In this document: positions 28,182 through 39,376 of the stretch, in pieces | How the letters are laid out: each line of letters starts with the position of its first letter | Position numbering within the stretch: the stretch's first letter is position 1 | Assembly (NCBI GenBank): GCA_944388385.1 | Contig: CALXIO010000022.1 | Location: forward strand, 1-39,376 | Source: an uncultured Ruminiclostridium sp. | Lineage (GTDB): Bacteria; Bacillota; Clostridia; Oscillospirales; Ruminococcaceae | Reading direction: 5' to 3' | Length of the DNA: 39,376 nt | The notes under the pieces: model-generated | The model's input: the letters and a program-made list of their open reading frames with translations, nothing else | The model's database searches: none | What the model was told of the DNA's origin: nothing | Position numbers and translations under genes: made by a program

Positions 28182-28601
28182 ATGGAATTTAAGGACGAAT
28201 TTGACACTATCATTTCAAAAGCAAAGGAATTGACCGACACCACAGTAAAAAAGGGTAATGAGGTTGTCCAGGTATCAAAGCTGAAGCTGGAATGTGTAAA
28301 GCTGGATAATGAAATCAAGGCAAGCTATGCTGTCCTCGGCAGAATGATTTACAGCATGGTAAAGCACGACAATGCAGATTCAGAGAGGATTGCCGAGCAC
28401 GTAAGAAAAATAGATGAAATGTATACAAAAATGGGCAAGCTCCGCACCGAAATCGAGCACACCCGTCGCATAATCACTTGTCCGGTATGCAAGGCAAAGA
28501 ACAAGTACGACAACATCTACTGCACCAACTGTTCAAACCGTCTTGTAGTAACAGACGAGGAACCCGAGGATTACAGTTATTGTAATGCCTGTGATGATTG
28601 A
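28182..28601 (+). CDS. coiled-coil protein with C-terminal zinc ribbon
   Basis: A 139-residue protein of unknown function. Residues 1-105 are helical and heptad-like (charged, with regular Leu, Val, Ile and Met positions), suggesting a coiled coil. Then come a zinc ribbon, CPVCKAKNKYDNIYCTNCS (about 107-125), and an acidic tail with a further CxxC (CNAC). No signal peptide or membrane segment is present. RBS AAAAGGAG precedes the ATG at 28182; an in-frame ATG at 28164 lies before the RBS. It is the last ordinary gene before the CRISPR locus, with its own promoter and terminator. Its stop codon is inside a heptanucleotide repeat. Confidence 0.75.
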   Translation: MEFKDEFDTIISKAKELTDTTVKKGNEVVQVSKLKLECVKLDNEIKASYAVLGRMIYSMVKHDNADSERIAEHVRKIDEMYTKMGKLRTEIEHTRRIITCPVCKAKNKYDNIYCTNCSNRLVVTDEEPEDYSYCNACDD

Positions 28602-28634: not shown

Positions 28635-28639
28635 AAGTA

Positions 28640-28664
28640 AAGCGGAGATTTTCTCCGCTTTTTT
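28640..28664 (+). terminator. terminator after the zinc-ribbon gene
   Basis: AAGCGGAG (28640-28647) and CTCCGCTT (28653-28660) form an 8-bp stem with a 5-nt loop and six T at the end. It isolates the RNA gene that follows from upstream transcription. Confidence 0.9.
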
Positions 28665-28667
28665 GTT

Positions 28668-28696
28668 TTGACAAATTTGGGCGGATGTGATATAAT
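28668..28696 (+). promoter_or_regulatory. consensus promoter of the CRISPR-repeat-like RNA
   Basis: TTGACA (28668-28673), exactly 17 nt, TATAAT (28691-28696), plus an extended -10 TGA. It matches the housekeeping consensus at all twelve positions and starts only 4 nt after the previous terminator's T tract. Predicted start of the RNA is near 28703. Confidence 0.92.
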
Positions 28697-28753
28697 AATA
28701 CCGGTTGTGATGTGTATAATACACACCATAACTCCACATACTGTTTTGTGGTT

Positions 28754-28784
28754 GTCGTGCCCTTGTGGGTGCGGGGATTGAAAT
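28754..28784 (+). repeat. solitary, diverged type I-C CRISPR repeat
   Basis: 31 nt against the array's 32-nt repeat and in the same orientation. The right part TTGTGGGTGCG and the handle GGATTGAAAT are identical. The left stem arm reads GTGCCC instead of GCACCC, one loop C is missing, and T becomes G at the base of the stem. GTGCCC can still pair with GGGTGC through two G-U wobbles, so the processing hairpin is kept although the sequence has drifted. No second repeat follows. Confidence 0.93.
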
Positions 28785-28806
28785 TTGTATAGTTGCTTTA
28801 AGGCAA

Positions 28807-28844
28807 AAGATGAAGGGGCATACTTCGGTATGTCCCTTCATTTT
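28807..28844 (+). terminator. UUCG-capped terminator of the CRISPR-like RNA
   Basis: TGAAGGGGCATAC (28811-28823) and GTATGTCCCTTCA (28828-28840) pair over 13 bp with one G-U around a TTCG tetraloop. The stem extends outward by A-T pairs, and the 3' side runs into TTTTAT. It ends the RNA 26 nt after the repeat and may take the place of the missing 3' repeat hairpin. Confidence 0.88.
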
Positions 28845-28886
28845 ATATGAATTACAATTTAATTTTGTGCCGTTTAAAATATTTTT

Positions 28887-28899
28887 TTCTTGTATGGTT
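28887..28899 (+). promoter_or_regulatory. weaker second pseudo-spacer match (site A) with TTC PAM
   Basis: TTC (28887-28889) is followed by TTGTATGGTT (28890-28899), which matches the pseudo-spacer start TTGTATAGTT at 9 of 10 positions (mismatch at 7). A 35-nt footprint from 28890 would end at the last base of the -35 hexamer at 28919-28924. Confidence 0.5.
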
Positions 28900-28918: not shown

Positions 28919-28947
28919 TTGACAAATATAAAAAGATATGCTATTAT
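28919..28947 (+). promoter_or_regulatory. cas3-facing promoter, likely target of the CRISPR-like RNA
   Basis: TTGACA (28919-28924), 17 nt, TATTAT (28942-28947) with extended -10 TGC. The predicted start is near 28954. It lies between target-like sites A (28890) and B (28962). The leader to cas3 would be about 209 nt. Confidence 0.85.
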
Positions 28948-28958
28948 AAAGAAAAAAG

Positions 28959-28977
28959 TTCTTGTAAAGTTGTTTTA
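28959..28977 (+). promoter_or_regulatory. pseudo-spacer target (site B) with TTC PAM
   Basis: TTC (28959-28961) precedes TTGTAAAGTTGTTTTA (28962-28977). The RNA's pseudo-spacer reads TTGTATAGTTGCTTTA. They agree at 14 of 16 positions, and the two differences are at positions 6 and 12, which type I Cascade does not read. Matching largely stops after position 16. The site begins about 8 nt after the predicted transcription start, so bound Cascade would block the promoter. Confidence 0.82.
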
Positions 28978-29092
28978 TATAATTTTAGAGTCTTAATTAA
29001 AGTCGGTATTTGCAATATGCGAAAATATCGACATAATTCGACAAAATGTATTTTAATATATCTTATATAATGGACAGGATTGTAGAAATATA

Positions 29093-29121
29093 TTGAATTT
29101 CGATATTTTATATGTTACAAT
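29093..29121 (+). promoter_or_regulatory. second, proximal cas3 promoter
   Basis: TTGAAT (29093-29098), 17 nt, TACAAT (29116-29121) with extended -10 TGT. Start near 29128 would leave a 35-nt leader before the cas3 GTG. Its -35 region overlaps the right arm of an inverted repeat with 29022-29039. Confidence 0.7.
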
Positions 29122-29162: not shown

Positions 29163-31544
29163 GTGGATTTTAGAGCTCATATTTCCGATGATGGGCGTGA
29201 ACAAAGTGTAAAAGAACATTGTGAAGCGGTGTCAGAGCTTTGCAGAGAATATGGTAAAAAGATAGGTCTTGAAAACCTTTGCAGTCTTGAAGGCTTATCT
29301 CATGACGGAGGTAAGCTATGTGGGGATTTTAATAATTATATTGCCGGCAATTCTTCATTTTCACGAGGTGAAATCGATCATAGCTTTGCCGGGGCAAAGT
29401 ATTTAAGTGACTTGTGCACTAAAATTGAATGTAAGGCTATAAAGAAAATTGCTGCAAGGGTAATTTGCTCTCACCACGGACTTCAGGACTGGCTTAACGA
29501 AAACAGCGAAAATACCTTGGTCAAGCGTTTAGATAAGAAAGACCGCTGGGATGAGATAGAAGAAAATATCAAAGCTACTTTTGATGAAAGGGCAACAATA
29601 GAGCTTATTAAAAAAGCGAACGAAGAATATGTAGCTTTTAAAAACCGCCTTTTTGAATGGTGCAAAGAAAATTATCCTGATGTTAAAACCGAAGCAAAGG
29701 GCTTTTTCCTTTTCTTGCTTGAAAGGATGTTACTTTCCATGCTTGTATCAGCCGACAGAGGAGATACTGCGGATTTTATGGCAGGGGAAAAATTAGGCAT
29801 ATCCTATGACAATAATTCGGTTTTTTCGGGAATGGAGGATAAAATCGAGGAAATAAATAAAGCTTTTTCAACGCTTACAGACCCCATTTCCTTAAAACGC
29901 CAAGATATTTCTAATAGATGTAAGGCGTTTTTCGACAATAAACGCAGCATTGTTCGTCTTGTAGTTCCAACAGGCGGAGGCAAAACCTTATCCTCTATGA
30001 GGTTTGCCGCATCCTACTGTAAGAAGTTTAGTAAGGACAGAATAATATATACCGCTCCCTTTATGTCTATACTTGAGCAAAACAGCGATACTATAAGAGG
30101 CCTTATGCCGGATGAAAGCCTATATTTAGAGCATCACAGCGATATTTTAAGCACAATGGGATCCGGTAATGACCTTGAGTTATACGAACTCAGGACTGAA
30201 CGCTGGGACAACCCGGTTATATCAACCACCTTAGTTCAGCTTCTTAACACCTTATTTTCCGGGAAAATGTCCTCTGTGGCAAGAATGCACAGACTTTGTA
30301 ATTCTGTGATTATTATAGATGAGGTTCAGTCAATACCCATAAAATGTATCTATATGTTTAATATGGCAATGAGTTTTTTAGCGGAGTTTTGTAATACCAC
30401 AGTGGTTTTATGTTCCGCTACACAGCCTTCGCTTGAAGATATTAAGTATAAGATGTGTGTTGATAAAGATTCCTCCATGACAGGTGATTATTCAGATGAT
30501 TTCTCTGCATTTAAGAGAACCCGGCTTGATTTTACTTATATAAAGCCTGAAGAATCCATGAGTTATTTTGAAGCCGCTGCATTTGCCAATGATTTATTAG
30601 GCAAAGATGATAATAACAGTATTTTGTTTATAGTAAATACAAAGGCGGCGGCAAAGGAAATATATGATAATTTAAAGCAGGTATGCCCAGGTGAGGTTCA
30701 GCTTATTTATCTTACCACCAATATGTGCCCTGCCCACCGCAAGGAAACAATCCGAAATATGAAGGATAGCATAAAAGAGAGCAGAGAAGGGGGTAAAAAG
30801 CTCATCTGCGTATCTACCCAGCTTATAGAGGCAGGTGTGGATGTATCCTTTTCCTGTGTTATAAGGTCCTTTGCAGGACTTGACAGCATTTCACAGGCGG
30901 CAGGACGTTGCAATCGTAATGGAGAATATGATTGTAAGACTGTTTATGTTGTAAAACTGTTTGAGGAAAAGCTAAGCAGACTAAAATACATTACCACAGC
31001 CCAAAGTTCGTCAGAATCAGTTATATATAATTCTGAAAATAAGGACCCACAATCCCCTGATGTTATGACTGAATATTATGACAGACTTTTTAAGGACTAT
31101 GGCAAGGAACTTTGCTATCCGGTGAAAGATCTTGATACACCGACAGACTTAATCAATATGCTTTCTGTTGCTAAGATAAGGCAGGATGATTATGTCAGAA
31201 AGACCGGTGCCAAAAGAGATTATTTCCCCCTTATGCGCACAGCAGGGAAGCTGTTTGAGGTAATAGATAATAATACCAAAACCGTAATAGTTCCCTATAA
31301 TGATGAAGCAAGAGATATTATCAATAAACTTAATTCCGATATATTCGGCAAAGAGCTTAATGATTGTTTAAGAAAAGCCCAGAAGTATTCTGTTGAATTA
31401 TACAGCTCAACAGAAAAGAAGCTCTTAGAAGAAAATGCACTTTACAATTTAAAATGTGGTGCAATAGCCGTAAAGGAAGAATTTTATTCTGCTATATACG
31501 GCATAACTACCGAAGGAAGCAACATGGAAGTGTTGTCTTTTTGA
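29163..31544 (+). CDS. cas3: CRISPR-associated helicase/nuclease Cas3 (HD fused, type I-C)
   Basis: Effector nuclease recruited by the I-C Cascade after target binding; unwinds and degrades DNA. The N-terminal HD nuclease shows H47-D48 (SHDGGKL), a histidine in IDHSF (H73) and the HH pair in SHHGLQDW. The SF2 helicase has Walker A PTGGGKT (269-275), motif II DEVQ (386-389), SATQP, and a late QAAGRCNRNG (motif VI). Length is 793 residues, normal for fused I-C Cas3. The start is GTG at 29163 with GGGGTG about 6 nt upstream; the next in-frame ATG would cut into the nuclease domain. It is the first gene of the cas operon and sits downstream of two promoters and the CRISPR-like RNA. Confidence 0.95.
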   Translation: MDFRAHISDDGREQSVKEHCEAVSELCREYGKKIGLENLCSLEGLSHDGGKLCGDFNNYIAGNSSFSRGEIDHSFAGAKYLSDLCTKIECKAIKKIAARVICSHHGLQDWLNENSENTLVKRLDKKDRWDEIEENIKATFDERATIELIKKANEEYVAFKNRLFEWCKENYPDVKTEAKGFFLFLLERMLLSMLVSADRGDTADFMAGEKLGISYDNNSVFSGMEDKIEEINKAFSTLTDPISLKRQDISNRCKAFFDNKRSIVRLVVPTGGGKTLSSMRFAASYCKKFSKDRIIYTAPFMSILEQNSDTIRGLMPDESLYLEHHSDILSTMGSGNDLELYELRTERWDNPVISTTLVQLLNTLFSGKMSSVARMHRLCNSVIIIDEVQSIPIKCIYMFNMAMSFLAEFCNTTVVLCSATQPSLEDIKYKMCVDKDSSMTGDYSDDFSAFKRTRLDFTYIKPEESMSYFEAAAFANDLLGKDDNNSILFIVNTKAAAKEIYDNLKQVCPGEVQLIYLTTNMCPAHRKETIRNMKDSIKESREGGKKLICVSTQLIEAGVDVSFSCVIRSFAGLDSISQAAGRCNRNGEYDCKTVYVVKLFEEKLSRLKYITTAQSSSESVIYNSENKDPQSPDVMTEYYDRLFKDYGKELCYPVKDLDTPTDLINMLSVAKIRQDDYVRKTGAKRDYFPLMRTAGKLFEVIDNNTKTVIVPYNDEARDIINKLNSDIFGKELNDCLRKAQKYSVELYSSTEKKLLEENALYNLKCGAIAVKEEFYSAIYGITTEGSNMEVLSF

Positions 31545-31573
31545 TAAAACTAAAAAGTAAAGGAGTGAAAAAA

Positions 31574-32320
31574 TTGAGCAAACCCCAGCATGAAAATAAG
31601 GTTGAATTCTGTGTTTACGGAGATTATGCTTTATTTTCAGATGTAATTACTAGGTCCGGCGGTGAAAAATTCAGCTACCCTATGCCCACCTATGAAGCTT
31701 TGAAAGGTATATTACATTCAATATACTGGAAGCCCACAATAGTATGGTATATTGATAAGGTTCGTGTAATGAATAAGATCAGTACCGAGCACAAGGGTAT
31801 TCTCAGACTTAAATATAAGAATAAGACTAAAGATTTATCTTATTATACTTACCTGCGTGATGTAAAATACCAGGTGCAGGCACATTTTGAATGGAACGAC
31901 AACCGACCGGAACTTTCAAACGACCGTAACGAAAACAAGCACCATAATATTGCTAAGAGAGCAATAGAAGCCGGCGGAAGAAGAGATATTTTCCTTGGAG
32001 TAAGGGAATGTTACGGCTATGTGGAGCCCTGTGTTTTTGGCGAAGGCGAGGGATACTATGATAACATTGAAGAAATTCAGTACGGTCTTATGCTTCATGG
32101 TATCACCTACCCCGATGAGGCTGTACTTGATGATGACAAGGGTTATCTTTCTGTACGCTTCTGGCAGCCTGTTATGAAAAATGGCATTATTGAATTTATC
32201 AGACCTGAGGAATGCGATTCAAAAAGGCATATCCGTAAAATGGATATCAAGTCCTTTGGAAAGGACAAGGGCAATTTCATAGGTTTAGAGGAGTTTAGAA
32301 AGGAGGGTGAAGATAATTGA
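31574..32320 (+). CDS. cas5c: Cas5c (Cas5d) crRNA-processing subunit
   Basis: In type I-C, which lacks Cas6, Cas5c cuts the pre-crRNA at the repeat hairpin and stays on the 5' handle. The family signature is seen near the N-terminus: VYGDYALFSDVITRSGGEKFSYP, here split as VYGDYALFSD and GGEKFSYPMPTYEALKGIL, then SIYWKPTIVW. Length is 248 residues from the TTG at 31574, which has AAAGGAG about 8 nt upstream. A longer open frame from 31454 has no RBS and overlaps cas3, and a GTG at 31565 lies in the RBS itself. It would also be the enzyme expected to process the solitary-repeat RNA. The stop overlaps the cas8c start. Confidence 0.93.
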   Translation: MSKPQHENKVEFCVYGDYALFSDVITRSGGEKFSYPMPTYEALKGILHSIYWKPTIVWYIDKVRVMNKISTEHKGILRLKYKNKTKDLSYYTYLRDVKYQVQAHFEWNDNRPELSNDRNENKHHNIAKRAIEAGGRRDIFLGVRECYGYVEPCVFGEGEGYYDNIEEIQYGLMLHGITYPDEAVLDDDKGYLSVRFWQPVMKNGIIEFIRPEECDSKRHIRKMDIKSFGKDKGNFIGLEEFRKEGEDN

Positions 32321-34179
32321 GCTGGACAAATGAGCTATATTCGGTTTATGAACGCTTTGCTGATAAGGACAATGAGATTCCCCTGCTTCCTCTTTCGCAT
32401 TCTACCCAGAATGCACAGATAGAAATTACCATTGATAAAGACGGAAATTTCAAAAGTGCCAGAGAAGTTGCCAAAGAGGACACTGTAACAGTAATACCTG
32501 TTACAGAGGATTCAGGAGGCAGAAGCAGCGGAATAGCTGCTCACCCTTTGGCGGATAAACTTATATACATAGCCGGAGATTACACTAAGTATATAGATCC
32601 GGAGCCTAAGAAAAAATACGGAGATTATCACAAGGCTTACCTTGAGCAGCTTAAAAGCTGGGATGAGTCATCATATACTCATCCTGCTGTTACAGCTGTC
32701 AGAAAATATGTTGAAAAGGGAAATGTGATAACAGACCTTGTTAATGCCCATGTAATGAAAACAGATGATACCGGCAAGCTTGATTCAACATTTAAAATAC
32801 AGCAGGTAGACCAAAGGGATTTCTTTATAAGGTTTAAGGTTTTAGGACTTGAAGAAGAAAAAACCTTTGCTGATGTATCATTAAGAGAATCCTATGATGG
32901 TTATTACCAGTCACTTATAAAGAGTGTCGGACTTTGTTATGGATCCGGAAAGGAATTGCCTTTGTCAACAAAGCATTCACAAAGAATAAGAAATGCCGGA
33001 GATAAAGGAAAGCTGATTTCAGCCAATGATGAGAGTGGATTTTCCTATCTGGGCAGATTTAATTCAAAGGAAGAGGCACTTTCTATAAGCTATGATTTTT
33101 CTCAGAAAATGCACAACGCTTTAAAATGGCTTATCCAAAAGCAGGGAACCGGTATTGACAGCATGGTGCTTCTTGCATGGGAAAGCAATCTTCAGCCCTT
33201 GCCTGAGCTTACCGCAAAAGGCATATCCTATGAGGATGAGGATTCAGATATGGATGAAGATGATGCTAACTATGATTCAACTGTAGAAGCCTTTAAGGAT
33301 AAGCTTCAGAAGTCCTTGTTCGGCAAAGGTGTAAAAATCGATCCGGATTCAAAGACAATGATTATGACAATAGATGCGGCGACCACCGGACGAGATTCTA
33401 TCACCATGTATGAGGAAATGCCCACCTCTGATTTTTATGAAAATCTTCAGAAATGGCATGAGGATTCCTCCTGGATGAGATTTAACGGAAAGAAGCTTAA
33501 GAATGAACAGAATTCATTTTCTTTCTATGAGATCGTTCAAAACGCATATGGCACTGAGAATACTTCGGTTGATAAAAAACTTCAGTGTTCTGCGTATTTA
33601 AGACTTTTGCCCTGCGTAATTTCTAACAAAAAAATACCCAACGATATAGTGCAGTCTTTATTCCATAAGGCTTGCAATCCTTTGGCGTATGATTCTAAGA
33701 AATACGGCTGGAGTAATGCGGTTGAAGTTGCGTGCGGCATGATTAAAAAACAAATTATTGAAAAGAAAGGAGAGTGCAGTATGGCACTTGACAAAACCTG
33801 TACCGAAAGAGATTATCTCTATGGTAGACTTATTGCTATTGCAGATATAGCAGAGGCCGGCACCTACAAAAAGGGAGAGAGTCGTACAACAAATGCCAGA
33901 CGTTTGTTTAATGCCTTTGCCAATCACCCTTACAGCACATGGGGAGTTATTATGCAGAGACTGGAACCCTATCTTAACAAAATGGATCCCGGCAAGAGAA
34001 TATGGTATGATAAGCTTATGCAGGAAGTTTATGATATGTTTTCAAAGGAAGATTTTGAAAACAATTCTGCATTAAAGCCTGTGTTTTTACTTGCGTATAA
34101 TTGTCAGGTTCGTGAATTATATGCTAAAAAGGAAGAAAAGGACAATTCGGATGTATCCGGAGAAAGTGAGGAAGAATAA
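32317..34179 (+). CDS. cas8c: Cas8c (Csd1) large Cascade subunit
   Basis: Large subunit of the I-C Cascade; reads the PAM and helps to open the DNA. The start MSWTNELYSVYERF and text such as NAQIEITIDKDGNF, HPLADKLIYIAGDY and AATTGRDSITMYEE follow the Csd1 family. The C-terminal part carries the helical small-subunit-like domain. Length is 620 residues. The start is a TTG overlapping the cas5c stop (TTGA), with AAAGGAGGG upstream. A second strong RBS and ATG inside the gene (33781) mark a separate Cas11c product in the same frame. Confidence 0.93.
   Translation: MSWTNELYSVYERFADKDNEIPLLPLSHSTQNAQIEITIDKDGNFKSAREVAKEDTVTVIPVTEDSGGRSSGIAAHPLADKLIYIAGDYTKYIDPEPKKKYGDYHKAYLEQLKSWDESSYTHPAVTAVRKYVEKGNVITDLVNAHVMKTDDTGKLDSTFKIQQVDQRDFFIRFKVLGLEEEKTFADVSLRESYDGYYQSLIKSVGLCYGSGKELPLSTKHSQRIRNAGDKGKLISANDESGFSYLGRFNSKEEALSISYDFSQKMHNALKWLIQKQGTGIDSMVLLAWESNLQPLPELTAKGISYEDEDSDMDEDDANYDSTVEAFKDKLQKSLFGKGVKIDPDSKTMIMTIDAATTGRDSITMYEEMPTSDFYENLQKWHEDSSWMRFNGKKLKNEQNSFSFYEIVQNAYGTENTSVDKKLQCSAYLRLLPCVISNKKIPNDIVQSLFHKACNPLAYDSKKYGWSNAVEVACGMIKKQIIEKKGECSMALDKTCTERDYLYGRLIAIADIAEAGTYKKGESRTTNARRLFNAFANHPYSTWGVIMQRLEPYLNKMDPGKRIWYDKLMQEVYDMFSKEDFENNSALKPVFLLAYNCQVRELYAKKEEKDNSDVSGESEEE
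33781..34179 (+). CDS. cas11c: Cas11c small subunit translated from inside cas8c
   Basis: In type I-C the small subunit is known to be made from an internal start within cas8c. Here AAAGGAG (33766-33772) lies 8 nt before an in-frame ATG at 33781, giving a 132-residue helical protein (MALDKTCTERDYLYGRL onward) identical to the Cas8c C-terminus. The RBS is better than the one many whole genes here have, and the size fits known Cas11c. Cas11c lines the Cascade belly and steadies the R-loop. It ends in an acidic DVSGESEEE tail. Confidence 0.85.
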   Translation: MALDKTCTERDYLYGRLIAIADIAEAGTYKKGESRTTNARRLFNAFANHPYSTWGVIMQRLEPYLNKMDPGKRIWYDKLMQEVYDMFSKEDFENNSALKPVFLLAYNCQVRELYAKKEEKDNSDVSGESEEE

Positions 34180-34181
34180 TT

Positions 34182-35054
34182 ATGGCAACTTTATCACAGA
34201 AGATTGATTTTGAAGTACTGTTTACAGTAGAGAATGCAAACTGCAACGGAGACCCTCTTAACGGAAATCGTCCCAGAGAGGATTATGACGGCTATGGTGA
34301 AATGTCTGATGTGTGTCTTAAGAGAAAGATTCGCAACAGACTTCAGGATGCAGGAGAGAAGATTTTTGTACAGTCCGATGACCGATGTGATGACGGATTT
34401 GACAGCCTTAAGGCAAGAGCTGACGGAAACGACGAACTGAAAAAGTTCTCAAAGGGCAAGAACACCAACAAGGATGAATTTTCAAAGGTAGCTTGTCAAT
34501 CCTGGATAGATGTTCGTGCATTTGGTCAGGTTTTTGCATTTAAAGGCGGCAAGGATAATGACGGTGTTTCCGTAGGAATAAGAGGCCCTGTTACTATAAG
34601 CCTTGCTAAGAGTGTTTCCCCCATTGACATTACAAGTATGCAGATAACAAAGAGCGTAAACAGTGAAAGCAAAAACGGCGAAAAGGGTTCAGATACAATG
34701 GGCACTAAGCACCGTGTTGATTTCGGCCTTTATGTAGCGAAGGGAAGTATCAACTGCCAGCTTGCAGAAAAGACAGGATTTTGCGATGAGGATGCCGAAA
34801 AAATAAAGGAAGCATTACTTACCTTATTTGAAAATGATTGCTCCTCTGCAAGACCTGACGGCAGCATGGAGGTTTGCCGTTTATACTGGTGGAAGCATGG
34901 ACAGAAACTCCCTAAGTATTCTTCTGCTAAGGTACACCGCAGTGTAAAGATAGAGCTTAAGAATCCTGATAAAAAGCCTGCATCATTTGATGATTATAAC
35001 ATCACAGTGGAAAAACTTGAAGGATTAGAGCCTGAAGTTTATGACCTTGTATGA
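34182..35054 (+). CDS. cas7c: Cas7c (Csd2) Cascade backbone subunit
   Basis: Backbone protein that coats the crRNA spacer, flipping out every sixth base. The Csd2/Cas7 signature VENANCNGDPLNGNRPRED is near the start, followed by LKRKIRNRLQ and later DVRAFGQVFAF and GIRGPVTI, then GTKHRVDFGLYVAKGSIN. Length is 290 residues, normal. Translation starts 2 nt after cas8c with GTGAGGAAG upstream. Its stop overlaps the cas4 ATG (ATGA). The 6-nt periodicity of this subunit is the reason why mismatches at positions 6 and 12 of the pseudo-spacer match are meaningful. Confidence 0.95.
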   Translation: MATLSQKIDFEVLFTVENANCNGDPLNGNRPREDYDGYGEMSDVCLKRKIRNRLQDAGEKIFVQSDDRCDDGFDSLKARADGNDELKKFSKGKNTNKDEFSKVACQSWIDVRAFGQVFAFKGGKDNDGVSVGIRGPVTISLAKSVSPIDITSMQITKSVNSESKNGEKGSDTMGTKHRVDFGLYVAKGSINCQLAEKTGFCDEDAEKIKEALLTLFENDCSSARPDGSMEVCRLYWWKHGQKLPKYSSAKVHRSVKIELKNPDKKPASFDDYNITVEKLEGLEPEVYDLV

Positions 35055-35710
35055 TATATTCTGAAGATGAACATCTTATGATTTCCGGCATTCAGCATTT
35101 TGTGTTTTGTCGTAGGCAGTGGGCACTTATTCACATAGAACAACAATGGGAAGAAAATCTGCTCACTGCCGATGGCAGAATAATACATGAAAATGTTCAT
35201 GACAGCGGGTTTCACGAAAAAAGAAAAGATATAATTTATACAAGGGGTATGGCAGTGGCATCACCTACATTAGGTGTGTCAGGTGAATGTGATCTGGTAG
35301 AATTTCATAAGTCCGATAAAGGAGTTCCTATATTCAGATATGGCGGCACATTTGATGTAATACCTGTTGAATATAAAAGAGGTAAGGCTAAAGAGGATGA
35401 ATCTGATATTATGCAGCTTACTGTTCAGGCCATGTGTCTTGAAGAGATGCTTTGTTGTGATATTCCCTATGGTTTTTTATATTATAACGAAACTCATCAC
35501 CGGGAAAAAATAATACTGGATGATGTAAAAAAGCAAAAAGCTGTAAAGATTTTACACGAGATGCATGATTTAAGGCAAAAAGGTTATACCCCGAAGGCAA
35601 AACGAACCAAATCCTGCAATGCTTGTTCTTTAAAGGAAATTTGCCTTCCTGCTCTTGAAAAATCTAAAAACGTTGCTGATTATATATCAAAGTATATGGA
35701 GGATTTTTAA
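35051..35710 (+). CDS. cas4: Cas4 RecB-like nuclease (adaptation)
   Basis: Helps Cas1-Cas2 pick and trim prespacers with a correct PAM. The single N-terminal cluster cysteine is C20 (HFVFCRRQW), and the C-terminal cysteines are in SCNACSLKEICLP. The RecB-type nuclease motifs are GECDLVEF and PVEYKRGK, then QLTVQAMCLEE. Length is 219 residues. It overlaps cas7c by 4 bp (ATGA). It is stand-alone here, not fused to Cas1. Confidence 0.94.
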   Translation: MIYSEDEHLMISGIQHFVFCRRQWALIHIEQQWEENLLTADGRIIHENVHDSGFHEKRKDIIYTRGMAVASPTLGVSGECDLVEFHKSDKGVPIFRYGGTFDVIPVEYKRGKAKEDESDIMQLTVQAMCLEEMLCCDIPYGFLYYNETHHREKIILDDVKKQKAVKILHEMHDLRQKGYTPKAKRTKSCNACSLKEICLPALEKSKNVADYISKYMEDF

Positions 35711-36745
35711 ATGAAAAAATTACTTAATACTCTGTATATAATACAACCAAACCGATATCTTTCTCTGGATGGTGAAAATGTTATCATAAACGATCAGCAT
35801 GAGGTCATAGGTCGTGTACCTTTACATAATCTTGATGGTATATATGGGTTTGGATGTAATGGGGTTAGTCCGGCTTTGATGGGAAAGTGTGCCTCCTGTT
35901 CAAAACCTATTGTGCTATTTGATAGAAATGGTAGATTTCTTTGTAGGTGTGAGGGTAAGGTTACCGGAAATGTTCTTTTGAGAAGAGAACAATATCGTGT
36001 TGCGGATGATTATGTAAGTTCCTTAGAAATAGCAAAGAATATGATAACCGGAAAAATATTCAACAGCAAATATGTTTTAAAAAGAGCATTGCGTGACCAT
36101 TCGGACAGACTTGACACAGAGAAATTTAAATCAAAAATAGAGCAACTGGATAATTCGTTGCTTATGTGTAAAACAATTCAATCTAAGCAGGAACTTCTCG
36201 GAGTTGAAGGGGAAGCAGCACAGATATATTTTTCTCTTATGGATGATATGATTTTACAGCAAAAGGATTTTTTTAAATTTTCATCAAGAAACAGACGCCC
36301 ACCTAAAGATGCAGTAAACGCCTTATTATCATTTACCTACTCTATATGTACTACTATGTGTGCAAATGCTTTAGAGGGAGTGGGGTTAGATCCCTATGTA
36401 GGATTTTTTCACACAGACAGACCCGGTCGTTGTTCGTTAGCTTTAGATTTAGTCGAAGAATTTCGTTCGGTGCTTTGTGATCGCTTTGTAATTTCTCTGA
36501 TAAACAGAAAAATGATAAATGAAAATCATTTCGAAATAAAAGAGAATGGAACTTATTTACTTACAGATGAAGGAAGAAAAATATTTTTTACCGCATGGCA
36601 AAATAAAAAGCAGGAAGTAATTACTCATCCCTATCTTGATGAAAAGGTACAGTGGGGTATGCTTCCTTATGTACAAGCTCTTTTATTAGCAAGACTTATA
36701 AGAGGGGATATTGATGGATATCCGGTATTTTTGTGGAGAAATTAA
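35711..36745 (+). CDS. cas1: Cas1 integrase (type I-C)
   Basis: Joins new spacers to the leader end of the array. Catalytic residues are visible as E166 (GVEGEAAQIYF), H234 (GFFHTDRPG) and the acidic D246/E249 pair in LALDLVEEFR. Family start MKKLLNTLYI with the SLDGENV beta-domain text is typical of the I-C branch. Length is 344 residues. The ATG follows the cas4 stop directly with GGAGG upstream in the cas4 end. No inactivating change is seen, so adaptation should work. Confidence 0.96.
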   Translation: MKKLLNTLYIIQPNRYLSLDGENVIINDQHEVIGRVPLHNLDGIYGFGCNGVSPALMGKCASCSKPIVLFDRNGRFLCRCEGKVTGNVLLRREQYRVADDYVSSLEIAKNMITGKIFNSKYVLKRALRDHSDRLDTEKFKSKIEQLDNSLLMCKTIQSKQELLGVEGEAAQIYFSLMDDMILQQKDFFKFSSRNRRPPKDAVNALLSFTYSICTTMCANALEGVGLDPYVGFFHTDRPGRCSLALDLVEEFRSVLCDRFVISLINRKMINENHFEIKENGTYLLTDEGRKIFFTAWQNKKQEVITHPYLDEKVQWGMLPYVQALLLARLIRGDIDGYPVFLWRN

Positions 36746-37036
36746 GTGTTTTTAATAATAACATACGATGTGAATGTTACTACTAAGGAAGGCAAAAGAC
36801 GATTGCAGAAGGTTGCAAAAGTCTGTGTTAATTATGGAGTCAGAGTCCAGAACTCTGTATTTGAATGTATAATGGATCCGGCTACTGAACTAATGGTAAG
36901 AAATAAACTTGTTTCAATAATTGATGAAAAAGTTGATAGCTTGCGATTTTATTATTTAGGAGATCATTATCAAAATAAAGTTAAACATATAGGAGCAAAT
37001 GTTTCGTTGAAACTGGATGATCCTATGATATTTTAG
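36746..37036 (+). CDS. cas2: Cas2 adaptation protein
   Basis: Structural partner of Cas1 in spacer integration. The ferredoxin-like fold begins MFLIITYDVN with the conserved aspartate D8, and the middle has VNYGVRVQNSVFEC. Length is 96 residues. The start is GTG directly after the cas1 TAA, with no good separate RBS, so it is likely coupled to cas1 translation. It is the last gene before the leader. Confidence 0.95.
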   Translation: MFLIITYDVNVTTKEGKRRLQKVAKVCVNYGVRVQNSVFECIMDPATELMVRNKLVSIIDEKVDSLRFYYLGDHYQNKVKHIGANVSLKLDDPMIF

Positions 37037-37207: not shown

Positions 37208-39376
37208 GTCGCACCCCTTGTGGGTGCGTGGATTGAAATATCATCGAAATAAGTCTGCAAGCAGTTTTCATGGGGTCGCACCCCTTGTGGGTGCGTGGAT
37301 TGAAATACTGTGAGTGCCGCTATGTGAGTATCCGATTATCGTCGCACCCCTTGTGGGTGCGTGGATTGAAATATCCCACAACGGGAAATCAAAGTTAAAA
37401 ACCTTGTCGCACCCCTTGTGGGTGCGTGGATTGAAATGTTCTCGTCGCAGACTATTAGTATTGGTGTCTTTTGTCGCACCCCTTGTGGGTGCGTGGATTG
37501 AAATCAGTGTGTTGTAAATGTTATCGATAATTTTACTTGGTCGCACCCCTTGTGGGTGCGTGGATTGAAATACCCATGTGACATTATCTCGTAAAAAAAT
37601 CGAGGGGTCGCACCCCTTGTGGGTGCGTGGATTGAAATATTTTGTAAATTACAAAAAGTTTTATAAAGCCACCAGTCGCACCCCTTGTGGGTGCGTGGAT
37701 TGAAATGCAAAAACCGTCGAAAAGCTCCAGATGTCAAACCGTCGCACCCCTTGTGGGTGCGTGGATTGAAATAGTCCGAGTACACTCGCTTTAAAGCGCA
37801 TTACTGTCGCACCCCTTGTGGGTGCGTGGATTGAAATATCTGAGACTGATTTTGAATCCTTTACTAGTAAGAGTCGCACCCCTTGTGGGTGCGTGGATTG
37901 AAATACTTTAGTGAGGATATGATATACACTTATTGTGATGTCGCACCCCTTGTGGGTGCGTGGATTGAAATAGTCGGAGTACGCTCGCTTTAAAGCGCAT
38001 TACTTTGTCGCACCCCTTGTGGGTGCGTGGATTGAAATACACCCATACCACATAGCACCTCATAGTAACTAAGGTCGCACCCCTTGTGGGTGCGTGGATT
38101 GAAATTACACATGGCTGGATATGTAATGTGTAGGTGTAAGTCGCACCCCTTGTGGGTGCGTGGATTGAAATACCCTCAACACCTACAATTAATAGTGTAT
38201 CTGTTAGTCGCACCCCTTGTGGGTGCGTGGATTGAAATAGATATGGTAAGGAGGATTTTATAATGGCAAATAGTCGCACCCCTTGTGGGTGCGTGGATTG
38301 AAATAAAACGTCTATCGATAATATAATTGATAGTTATGAGTCGCACCCCTTGTGGGTGCGTGGATTGAAATCAGTGCCTCCTTGAGTACTAGTACATCGT
38401 TTGTGTCGCACCCCTTGTGGGTGCGTGGATTGAAATAACGCATGGTACACACTTAACGGTGGTTTTGGCTCGTCGCACCCCTTGTGGGTGCGTGGATTGA
38501 AATTATCAACATTTACCGACTTACAACCCACAGAAAACGTCGCACCCCTTGTGGGTGCGTGGATTGAAATATATGTAAAATAAAATCTTTTCATGTTTTG
38601 TCCGTCGCACCCCTTGTGGGTGCGTGGATTGAAATCTGAAATCCTGCTCAAAATTGATGTTAGGGTATACGTCGCACCCCTTGTGGGTGCGTGGATTGAA
38701 ATTTTAATGCAGAGCTTGCACCGCAGGGTTTAATTTGCGTCGCACCCCTTGTGGGTGCGTGGATTGAAATTGCATACTTTGCTTGATACATATACAGCCA
38801 GTCGTCGCACCCCTTGTGGGTGCGTGGATTGAAATTCCCTAACGTCATTAGATAGTGACGGTTACACAGGTCGCACCCCTTGTGGGTGCGTGGATTGAAA
38901 TAATTATTAACAGAGCTAATTTTGCAGAGCCTAGTCGTCGCACCCCTTGTGGGTGCGTGGATTGAAATGCCGTCAATTATTGCTGTTGTCTCATCGTGGT
39001 AGTCGCACCCCTTGTGGGTGCGTGGATTGAAATTTACACCAGTGGACTTTTTTCTTCTGCCACTCGTAGTCGCACCCCTTGTGGGTGCGTGGATTGAAAT
39101 ATTTTGTTATCAAAAAACTTAAATCCTTTATTTAGGGTCGCACCCCTTGTGGGTGCGTGGATTGAAATTTTTGCCGCGTTTGGCTAAAATGAACGATATA
39201 GAGTCGCACCCCTTGTGGGTGCGTGGATTGAAATAAGAGGTGTTATATGGTTTTCGGGGTCAGTATCAAGTCGCACCCCTTGTGGGTGCGTGGATTGAAA
39301 TGCGACAAACTAAGCGTTGCTGATACAGGATTTATTGTCGCACCCCTTGTGGGTGCGTGGATTGAAATAAAAACTT
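37208..39376 (+). CRISPR. type I-C CRISPR array, at least 33 repeats (cut by window end)
   Basis: A 32-nt repeat beginning GTCGCACCCC and ending GTGGATTGAAAT, with a GCACCC/GGGTGC stem, occurs 33 times from 37208 to 39337. All copies read the same in this window. There are 32 full spacers of 33-36 nt and the first 8 nt of another. Orientation follows the cas genes: the leader is on the left and the 5' handle text ends each repeat. No degenerate last repeat is seen, because the array continues past the window. Spacers 9 and 12 are near duplicates. Confidence 0.99.

Follow-up and report, generated by a model that had tools for sequence, protein, structure and literature searches.

A putative CreR-like guide RNA gene with a PAM-flanked target at the promoter of a type I-C cas operon, and comparable guide-target pairs at other type I-C loci

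In a stretch of 39,376 nucleotides from an uncultured Ruminiclostridium sp. (the window, by which we mean the whole stretch analysed), we identified a candidate CreR-like guide RNA gene in front of a type I-C cas operon. Its pseudo-spacer matches a PAM-flanked site just past the predicted cas promoter and would likely lead Cascade to repress the operon, a reading to which we assign a probability of about 0.87. The initial annotation had proposed a CreR-like guide for the type I-C operon and named no target; the PAM-flanked target found here, the intact operon and 13 more guide-target pairs at other loci all argue for that proposal at the level of sequence.

The candidate gene lies on the forward strand, flanked on one side by a small ORF (28182-28598) with a weak zinc-ribbon match below the Pfam cut-off and on the other by the type I-C operon, so that a repeat-derived RNA gene stands outside the array and adjoins the cas genes, which is one of the features by which CreR genes are recognized. 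Its promoter (28668-28696, TTGACA-17-TATAAT, with TG before the second hexamer) agrees with the consensus at all 12 positions, as had been claimed, and the predicted transcript of approximately 143 nt (28703-28845) takes its ends from this promoter and from a hairpin at the 3' side. Comparison with the array repeat, together with folding, placed a solitary 31-nt pseudo-repeat (psiR), a diverged I-C repeat, at 28754-28784, followed by a 25-nt pseudo-spacer (psiS) at 28785-28809, where the initial annotation had also seen one. Relative to the 32-nt array repeat, psiR is on the same strand and identical in its last 10 bases (GGATTGAAAT), and its stem is altered and one base shorter, being retained with G-U pairs and a 4-nt loop; the last 11 nt of psiR would serve as the 5' handle. 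A search of the host's own genome returned 45 matches, of which one was the whole block and the other 44 were repeat-sized and at array spacing, located where contig C22 ends and contig C3 starts. As these other matches are pieces of the array, the psiR copy is solitary, and the earlier description of a single diverged copy of the local repeat in the correct orientation holds.

Folding of the 145-nt RNA gave -61.4 kcal/mol (z = -6.84), which none of the shuffles equalled (0/200). The hairpin at 28810-28842, placed by folding, is UUCG-capped (TTCG loop in DNA) and is a likely terminator. The UUCG-capped terminator described before was thus recovered as a hairpin and a loop, but its T tail is short (TTTTAT) and it is absent from the list of the terminator scan, which contained only a hairpin at 28639-28661, immediately 5' of the guide gene promoter. 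An Rfam search gave seven matches up to E = 1, every one far under its gathering score.

The type I-C operon is complete, with seven of seven cas genes having a model above its own NCBIfam cut-off, and is accompanied by an array. In order on the forward strand, these are cas3 (29163-31544; helicase plus HD nuclease, TIGR01587 and TIGR01596), cas5c (31454-32320; TIGR01876), the predicted processing enzyme, with a true start that is probably later than the listed ORF start, cas8c (32317-34179; TIGR01863), cas7c (34182-35054; TIGR02589), and cas4, cas1c and cas2 (35051-37036; TIGR00372, TIGR03640 and TIGR01573). The I-C CRISPR array with the parent repeat (37208-39376, forward strand) extends past the window end, with further repeats opening contig C3, and begins 8.4 kb downstream of the guide RNA gene, in agreement with the separation given earlier. 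Four array spacer patterns were searched against viral contigs with zero matches each, so that we infer the host's own PAM. The array spacers at 37773-37805 and 37972-38004 (family D3) are near-identical, as if acquired twice from related invaders, and had no viral contig match.

The predicted promoter of the cas operon (28919-28947, forward strand, TTGACA-17-TATTAT) agrees with the consensus at 11 of 12 positions and carries TG. Just downstream of it, the guide matches a main target at 28962-28977 on the forward strand, beside a TTC PAM at 28959-28961. Guide positions 1-5, 7-11 and 13-16 match and the only mismatches fall at 6 and 12, as expected for Cascade because every sixth base of the guide stays unpaired in type I Cascade. 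Limited complementarity of this kind to the cas promoter region, beside a candidate PAM, is likewise a feature of CreRs. Across the window, the 28959 site is the best TTC-flanked match (14/15 scored positions; the runner-up has 10). A search of the 2.05-Mb genome with the PAM and target pattern, allowing up to three mismatches, gave 12 places, that at 28959 with none and the other 11 with three, and a reversed control pattern gave 15; 28959 is therefore the sole place in the genome with fewer than three mismatches. When the 320-bp region was shuffled with dinucleotides preserved, one in 20,000 shuffles attained the 10/10 seed and none attained 14/15. Shuffled guides attained the seed score of the 28959 site at an equal rate (5e-5), and the best of the 32 array spacers reached only 6/10 seed against the cas promoter region.

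There is a possible second, weaker target at 28887-28899 on the forward strand (TTC plus 9/10 bases), upstream of the -35 box; it was spotted post hoc, and its score level (match at 28890) arises in 0.6% of shuffles. Downstream of the main target and near cas3, a weaker promoter-like site (29093-29121; 9/12 with TG) could bypass repression; nine sites of this level occur in the scanned stretch, against 4.7 expected from shuffles.

The match at the cas promoter also bears on whether the element is instead an RNA anti-CRISPR (Racr) of phage type that soaks up Cas proteins. Racrs take the form of solitary repeats that mimic the host repeat, according to PMC10651486, and the solitary psiR shares that form. 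A Racr, however, has no need of a PAM-flanked match at the cas promoter, and the upstream translations resemble housekeeping genes by eye, with none phage-like, which makes this origin extremely improbable.

To follow the CreR-like reading beyond the window, other type I-C loci were surveyed for a solitary repeat end, differing from GTGGATTGAAA in no more than one base, in the 1.2 kb upstream of cas3. A target could lie anywhere in the same stretch with at least 9/10 and at least 12/15 matches, guide positions 6 and 12 being unscored and 18 unused. No PAM was imposed in the search, and matches were accepted afterwards at TTC or TTT, and once at CTC. This strict rule was tuned on set 1 and then held fixed; later lists were looser, but the six pairs counted from them meet the strict rule. 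For the relatives' first pool, 16 of 60 genomes had a Cas7 match, and the 11 better loci were taken and the weaker ones (approximately 27-40% identity) left out. The exploratory set 1 started from 93 loci, eight of which were without a cas3 start, and with the window included it comprised 86 regions, reduced to 80 after removal of two that were too short and four duplicates; its named loci were the top-ranking 80 of 560, which biases set 1 towards close relatives. Set 2, drawn from the order, had 35 new genomes, of which 34 were requested and 33 obtained, leaving 30 loci after removal of one without a cas3 start and two duplicates. Set 3, drawn from the phylum, had 26 new genomes, of which 25 were taken, leaving 24 loci after removal of one duplicate. 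Some surveyed regions were shorter than 1.2 kb (e.g. L045/L124, L087, L088, L119, L174 and L178), and guides more diverged than the rule allows would escape the survey.

A looser first search with a shorter handle motif gave a match at TTC in eight of the 86 regions and at TTT in four, with 2, 1, 1 and otherwise 0 at nine other trinucleotides. Five of the TTC regions survived the stricter handle (L034, L055, L078, L093 and the window), and L038, L043 and L066 were dropped by it. With a longer handle at three mismatches and any PAM, matches were spread over 25 trinucleotides (TTC 5, CAA 4, and TTT, AAA and TAA 3 each). Most of those outside TTC and TTT had 3-mismatch handles and resembled inverted repeats, tandem repeats or array edges, and they were rejected.

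Under the strict rule, the 134 distinct type I-C loci yielded 19 solitary repeat ends, 14 of them with an accepted target, beside TTC in eight pairs, TTT in five and CTC in one; the CTC of L163 was accepted post hoc, and the strict TTC/TTT count is 13/19. A repeat end was present in 10 of the 80 loci of set 1, with a TTC or TTT target in 8/10, and accepted targets were found for 3/3 repeat ends in set 2 and 3/6 in set 3. Removal of the PAM filter from set 1 added two passing matches: a CAC-flanked one in L041, and in L093 a CAA-flanked one besides the match already accepted there. From shuffled regions, 0.03 of the first 13 guides were predicted to have a TTC or TTT target against 10 seen, and with any trinucleotide 0.5 were predicted against 12 seen (including the CTC and the CAC of L041). 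Accepted targets were lacking for five of the 19 repeat ends (L041, L063, L173, L183 and L185): the sole passing match of L041 was CAC-flanked and in a tandem stretch, and L183 had only a TAA-flanked one at 8/10. In L173 and L183, a well-formed solitary I-C repeat precedes cas3 by less than 200 bp, and the 1.2 kb searched contained no accepted target; their targets may lie elsewhere in the genome.

The other 13 guides have only 2-10 of 17 bases in common with the window guide, and each of them, despite its differing sequence, matches a site beside its own cas3. Guide and target thus co-vary across loci, a test that we added ourselves and that lies outside the published definition of CreR. All eight set 1 pairs and all three set 2 pairs were predicted by folding to have a stem preceding the handle and, after a short guide, a hairpin.

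Of the signs of function in these sequences, the strongest is how pairing is distributed along the guide. Positions 1-5 match in all 14 pairs, positions 7-11 in 14, 14, 13, 12 and 14, and positions 13-17 in 13, 13, 12, 14 and 9, with matches at position 6 in 3/14, position 12 in 4/14 and position 18 in 1/14. Position 19 matches in 7/14 and later positions in 1-5 of 14. As 6 and 12 were unscored and 18 unused, the drop at these three positions is not a product of selection; the high match at the remaining positions comes partly from selection, and the shuffles test the existence of such matches beside the right PAM. Plain DNA duplication would produce matches at 6, 12 and 18 too, where the pairs mostly have none. 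The free positions 6, 12 and 18 and a pairing end near 17 suggest what extent of pairing is tolerated in evolution for binding without cutting, and this extent bears on gene repression tools built on type I-C systems.

The guide gene is oriented with cas3 in four of the 14 pairs and against it in 10. When sets 1 and 2 were scanned with an assumed footprint of 35 bp, a predicted forward promoter of at least 10/12 overlapped or adjoined eight targets (the window, L034, L055, L081, L084, L105, L141 and L163). L078 had no promoter of at least 10/12 near cas3, and L161 had just a 9/12 one. In 10 of the 13 other loci the target starts within approximately 300 bp of cas3. This last count is at odds with an addiction module of the CreTA or CrePA kind, in which the targeted promoter would drive a small toxin, either RNA or protein, encoded in the 200-bp leader, and repression of cas3 would be secondary. 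CreA guides are of like appearance, and in L093 and L174 the target is placed at the 5' region of a small ORF (62 and 85 aa, respectively) and not at cas3, which lends this alternative some weight. In the window, however, the leader is without a convincing small gene by eye, and no terminator is listed between the targeted promoter and cas3, a weak point in that the same scan also missed the 28810 hairpin. Taken together, we regard an addiction module as unlikely here, and continue with a CreR-like autorepressor.

Four of the surveyed loci have layouts of their own. L093 (Enterococcus rivorum) has, in the stretch approximately 730 to 430 bp upstream of cas3, a 62-aa ORF with hydrophobic stretches and no Pfam family; the ORF lies upstream of the guide, whose target falls in its 5' region, and judged by sequence its product resembles a small protein of CrePA type controlled by Cascade. 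In L174, the region 832 to 475 bp upstream of cas3 includes an 85-aa ORF that has no Pfam family; the ORF is preceded by a TTT-flanked target overlapping what is, by eye, a promoter-like TTGACA, and after the ORF come the solitary repeat and, further on, cas3. The target in L177 (330 to 256 bp upstream of cas3) is immediately 5' of the guide's own pseudo-repeat, and this guide might control its own promoter. In L163 (480 to 165 bp upstream of cas3), the sequence behind the targeted promoter resembles, by eye, a broken cas5c fragment.

The initial annotation had proposed to examine whether the repeat part, pseudo-spacer and terminator co-occur upstream of cas3 in related genomes, and held that free decay of the repeat piece in relatives keeping the cas operon would refute the guide reading. 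Pairs do occur in 14 of 134 loci, but the nearest testable relatives (Cas7 75-76% among the best 80 of 560) had no pair in the 2.5 kb upstream searched for L044 or in the 863 bp only of L045/L124; L046-L048 (Cas7 71-74%) fell outside the test, with no cas3 start on the contig. Half of the adverse pattern was therefore seen, in that the closest relatives tested keep the cas operon yet are without the guide element. As the element is missing there and a detectable pair is present in only 14/134 loci, the guide element appears to be an optional, fast-changing part. The window and L034, of one genus, differ in their guides, which suggests either that the element arose more than once or that its guide was completely rewritten.

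Absence from the closest relatives tested, and the presence of repeat-derived sequence near the cas operon, would also fit a decayed and functionless remnant of a CRISPR array. We hold such a remnant to be very improbable in view of the perfect promoter, the folded RNA (z = -6.84), the retained repeat end and the PAM-flanked target, and of a like arrangement that recurs with other guides. A broader reading, which we offer tentatively and at somewhat below even odds, is that type I-C Cascade has a second, regulatory role across Bacillota, with solitary repeats repeatedly yielding short guides whose sequence changes in step with that of the target. Most of these targets would be at the cas promoter and some at genes for small proteins next to the operon, and autorepressors and addiction-type modules would interconvert.

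Passages of PMC7684278 describe type I-C systems as being without Cas6, with crRNA processed by Cas5c. In the proposed CreR-like mechanism, the promoter at 28668 would give a transcript of approximately 143 nt, which Cas5c would cut at the base of the pseudo-repeat stem, so that an 11-nt handle would remain in front of the 25-nt guide and the hairpin at the 3' side. On the processed guide RNA, Cas5c, Cas7 and Cas8c would assemble, and the loaded complex would bind 28959-28996, next to the predicted start site, and block initiation or early elongation of the cas3-cas2 transcript. Pairing of only about 16 nt would permit binding without cutting by Cas3. Expression of cas would in this way be held to the level of free Cascade. 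A shortage of Cascade, its occupation by array crRNAs or its blocking by an anti-CRISPR would free the operon from repression, the last of these being a step borrowed by analogy from the CreR literature. If correct, this would carry RNA-guided self-control of CRISPR to one of its commonest subtypes, with guide processing by Cas5c; the 14 guide-target pairs form a testable set, and the simple rule of the survey can be applied to other type I genomes to look for guides of this kind.

CreR was reportedly described as a cas-regulating RNA by Liu et al. 2023 (Cell Host Microbe). A computational survey by Shmakov et al. 2023 reportedly covered repeats that stand alone and partly match cas promoters, for the most part in type I systems, and the window element is likewise a stand-alone repeat with a partial cas promoter match. 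CreRs are usually two-repeat mini-CRISPRs; the window element differs from this build in having one pseudo-repeat and a hairpin in place of two repeats. In passages of PMC12737573, PMC13131331 and PMC12948488, CreR is an RNA that resembles a crRNA and is complementary to the cas promoter over a limited length; through it Cascade represses its own genes, with relief by crRNA load or anti-CRISPRs. The window element, known here from its sequence, is similarly a crRNA-like gene with limited complementarity to a cas promoter. As to subtypes, the relevant passages name I-B, I-E and V-A (PMC13131331) or type I and V-A broadly (PMC12737573); the I-C system of the window is not among the three of PMC13131331. 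Among the papers listed in our literature searches, which covered mostly non-subscription papers and did not include the Shmakov 2023 survey, we found no type I-C CreR.

The CreA of Haloarcula hispanica (CreTA) is described in passages of PMC8501985 as one pseudo-repeat, a pseudo-spacer and a T-rich terminator, a single-repeat-plus-terminator build that the window element has in common with it, and the H. hubeiense CreA pairs at positions 1-5 and 7-11 beside a TTC PAM. That CreA belongs to a I-B system and represses an RNA toxin, whereas the window target is at the cas promoter of a I-C system. In Neisseria I-C CRISPRi, according to passages of PMC10865793, transcription is repressed when Cascade is directed to a promoter site with TTC or TTT next to it, these two being the consensus PAMs of that I-C system. 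The promoter sites there stand beside the same trinucleotides as in the window and most of the pairs, but that system is engineered and uses full-length spacers. The CreR class is already known, and the window element carries its sequence features, namely a solitary repeat gene by the cas operon and a PAM-flanked promoter match; our preferred reading is a CreR-type autorepressor belonging to a type I-C system.
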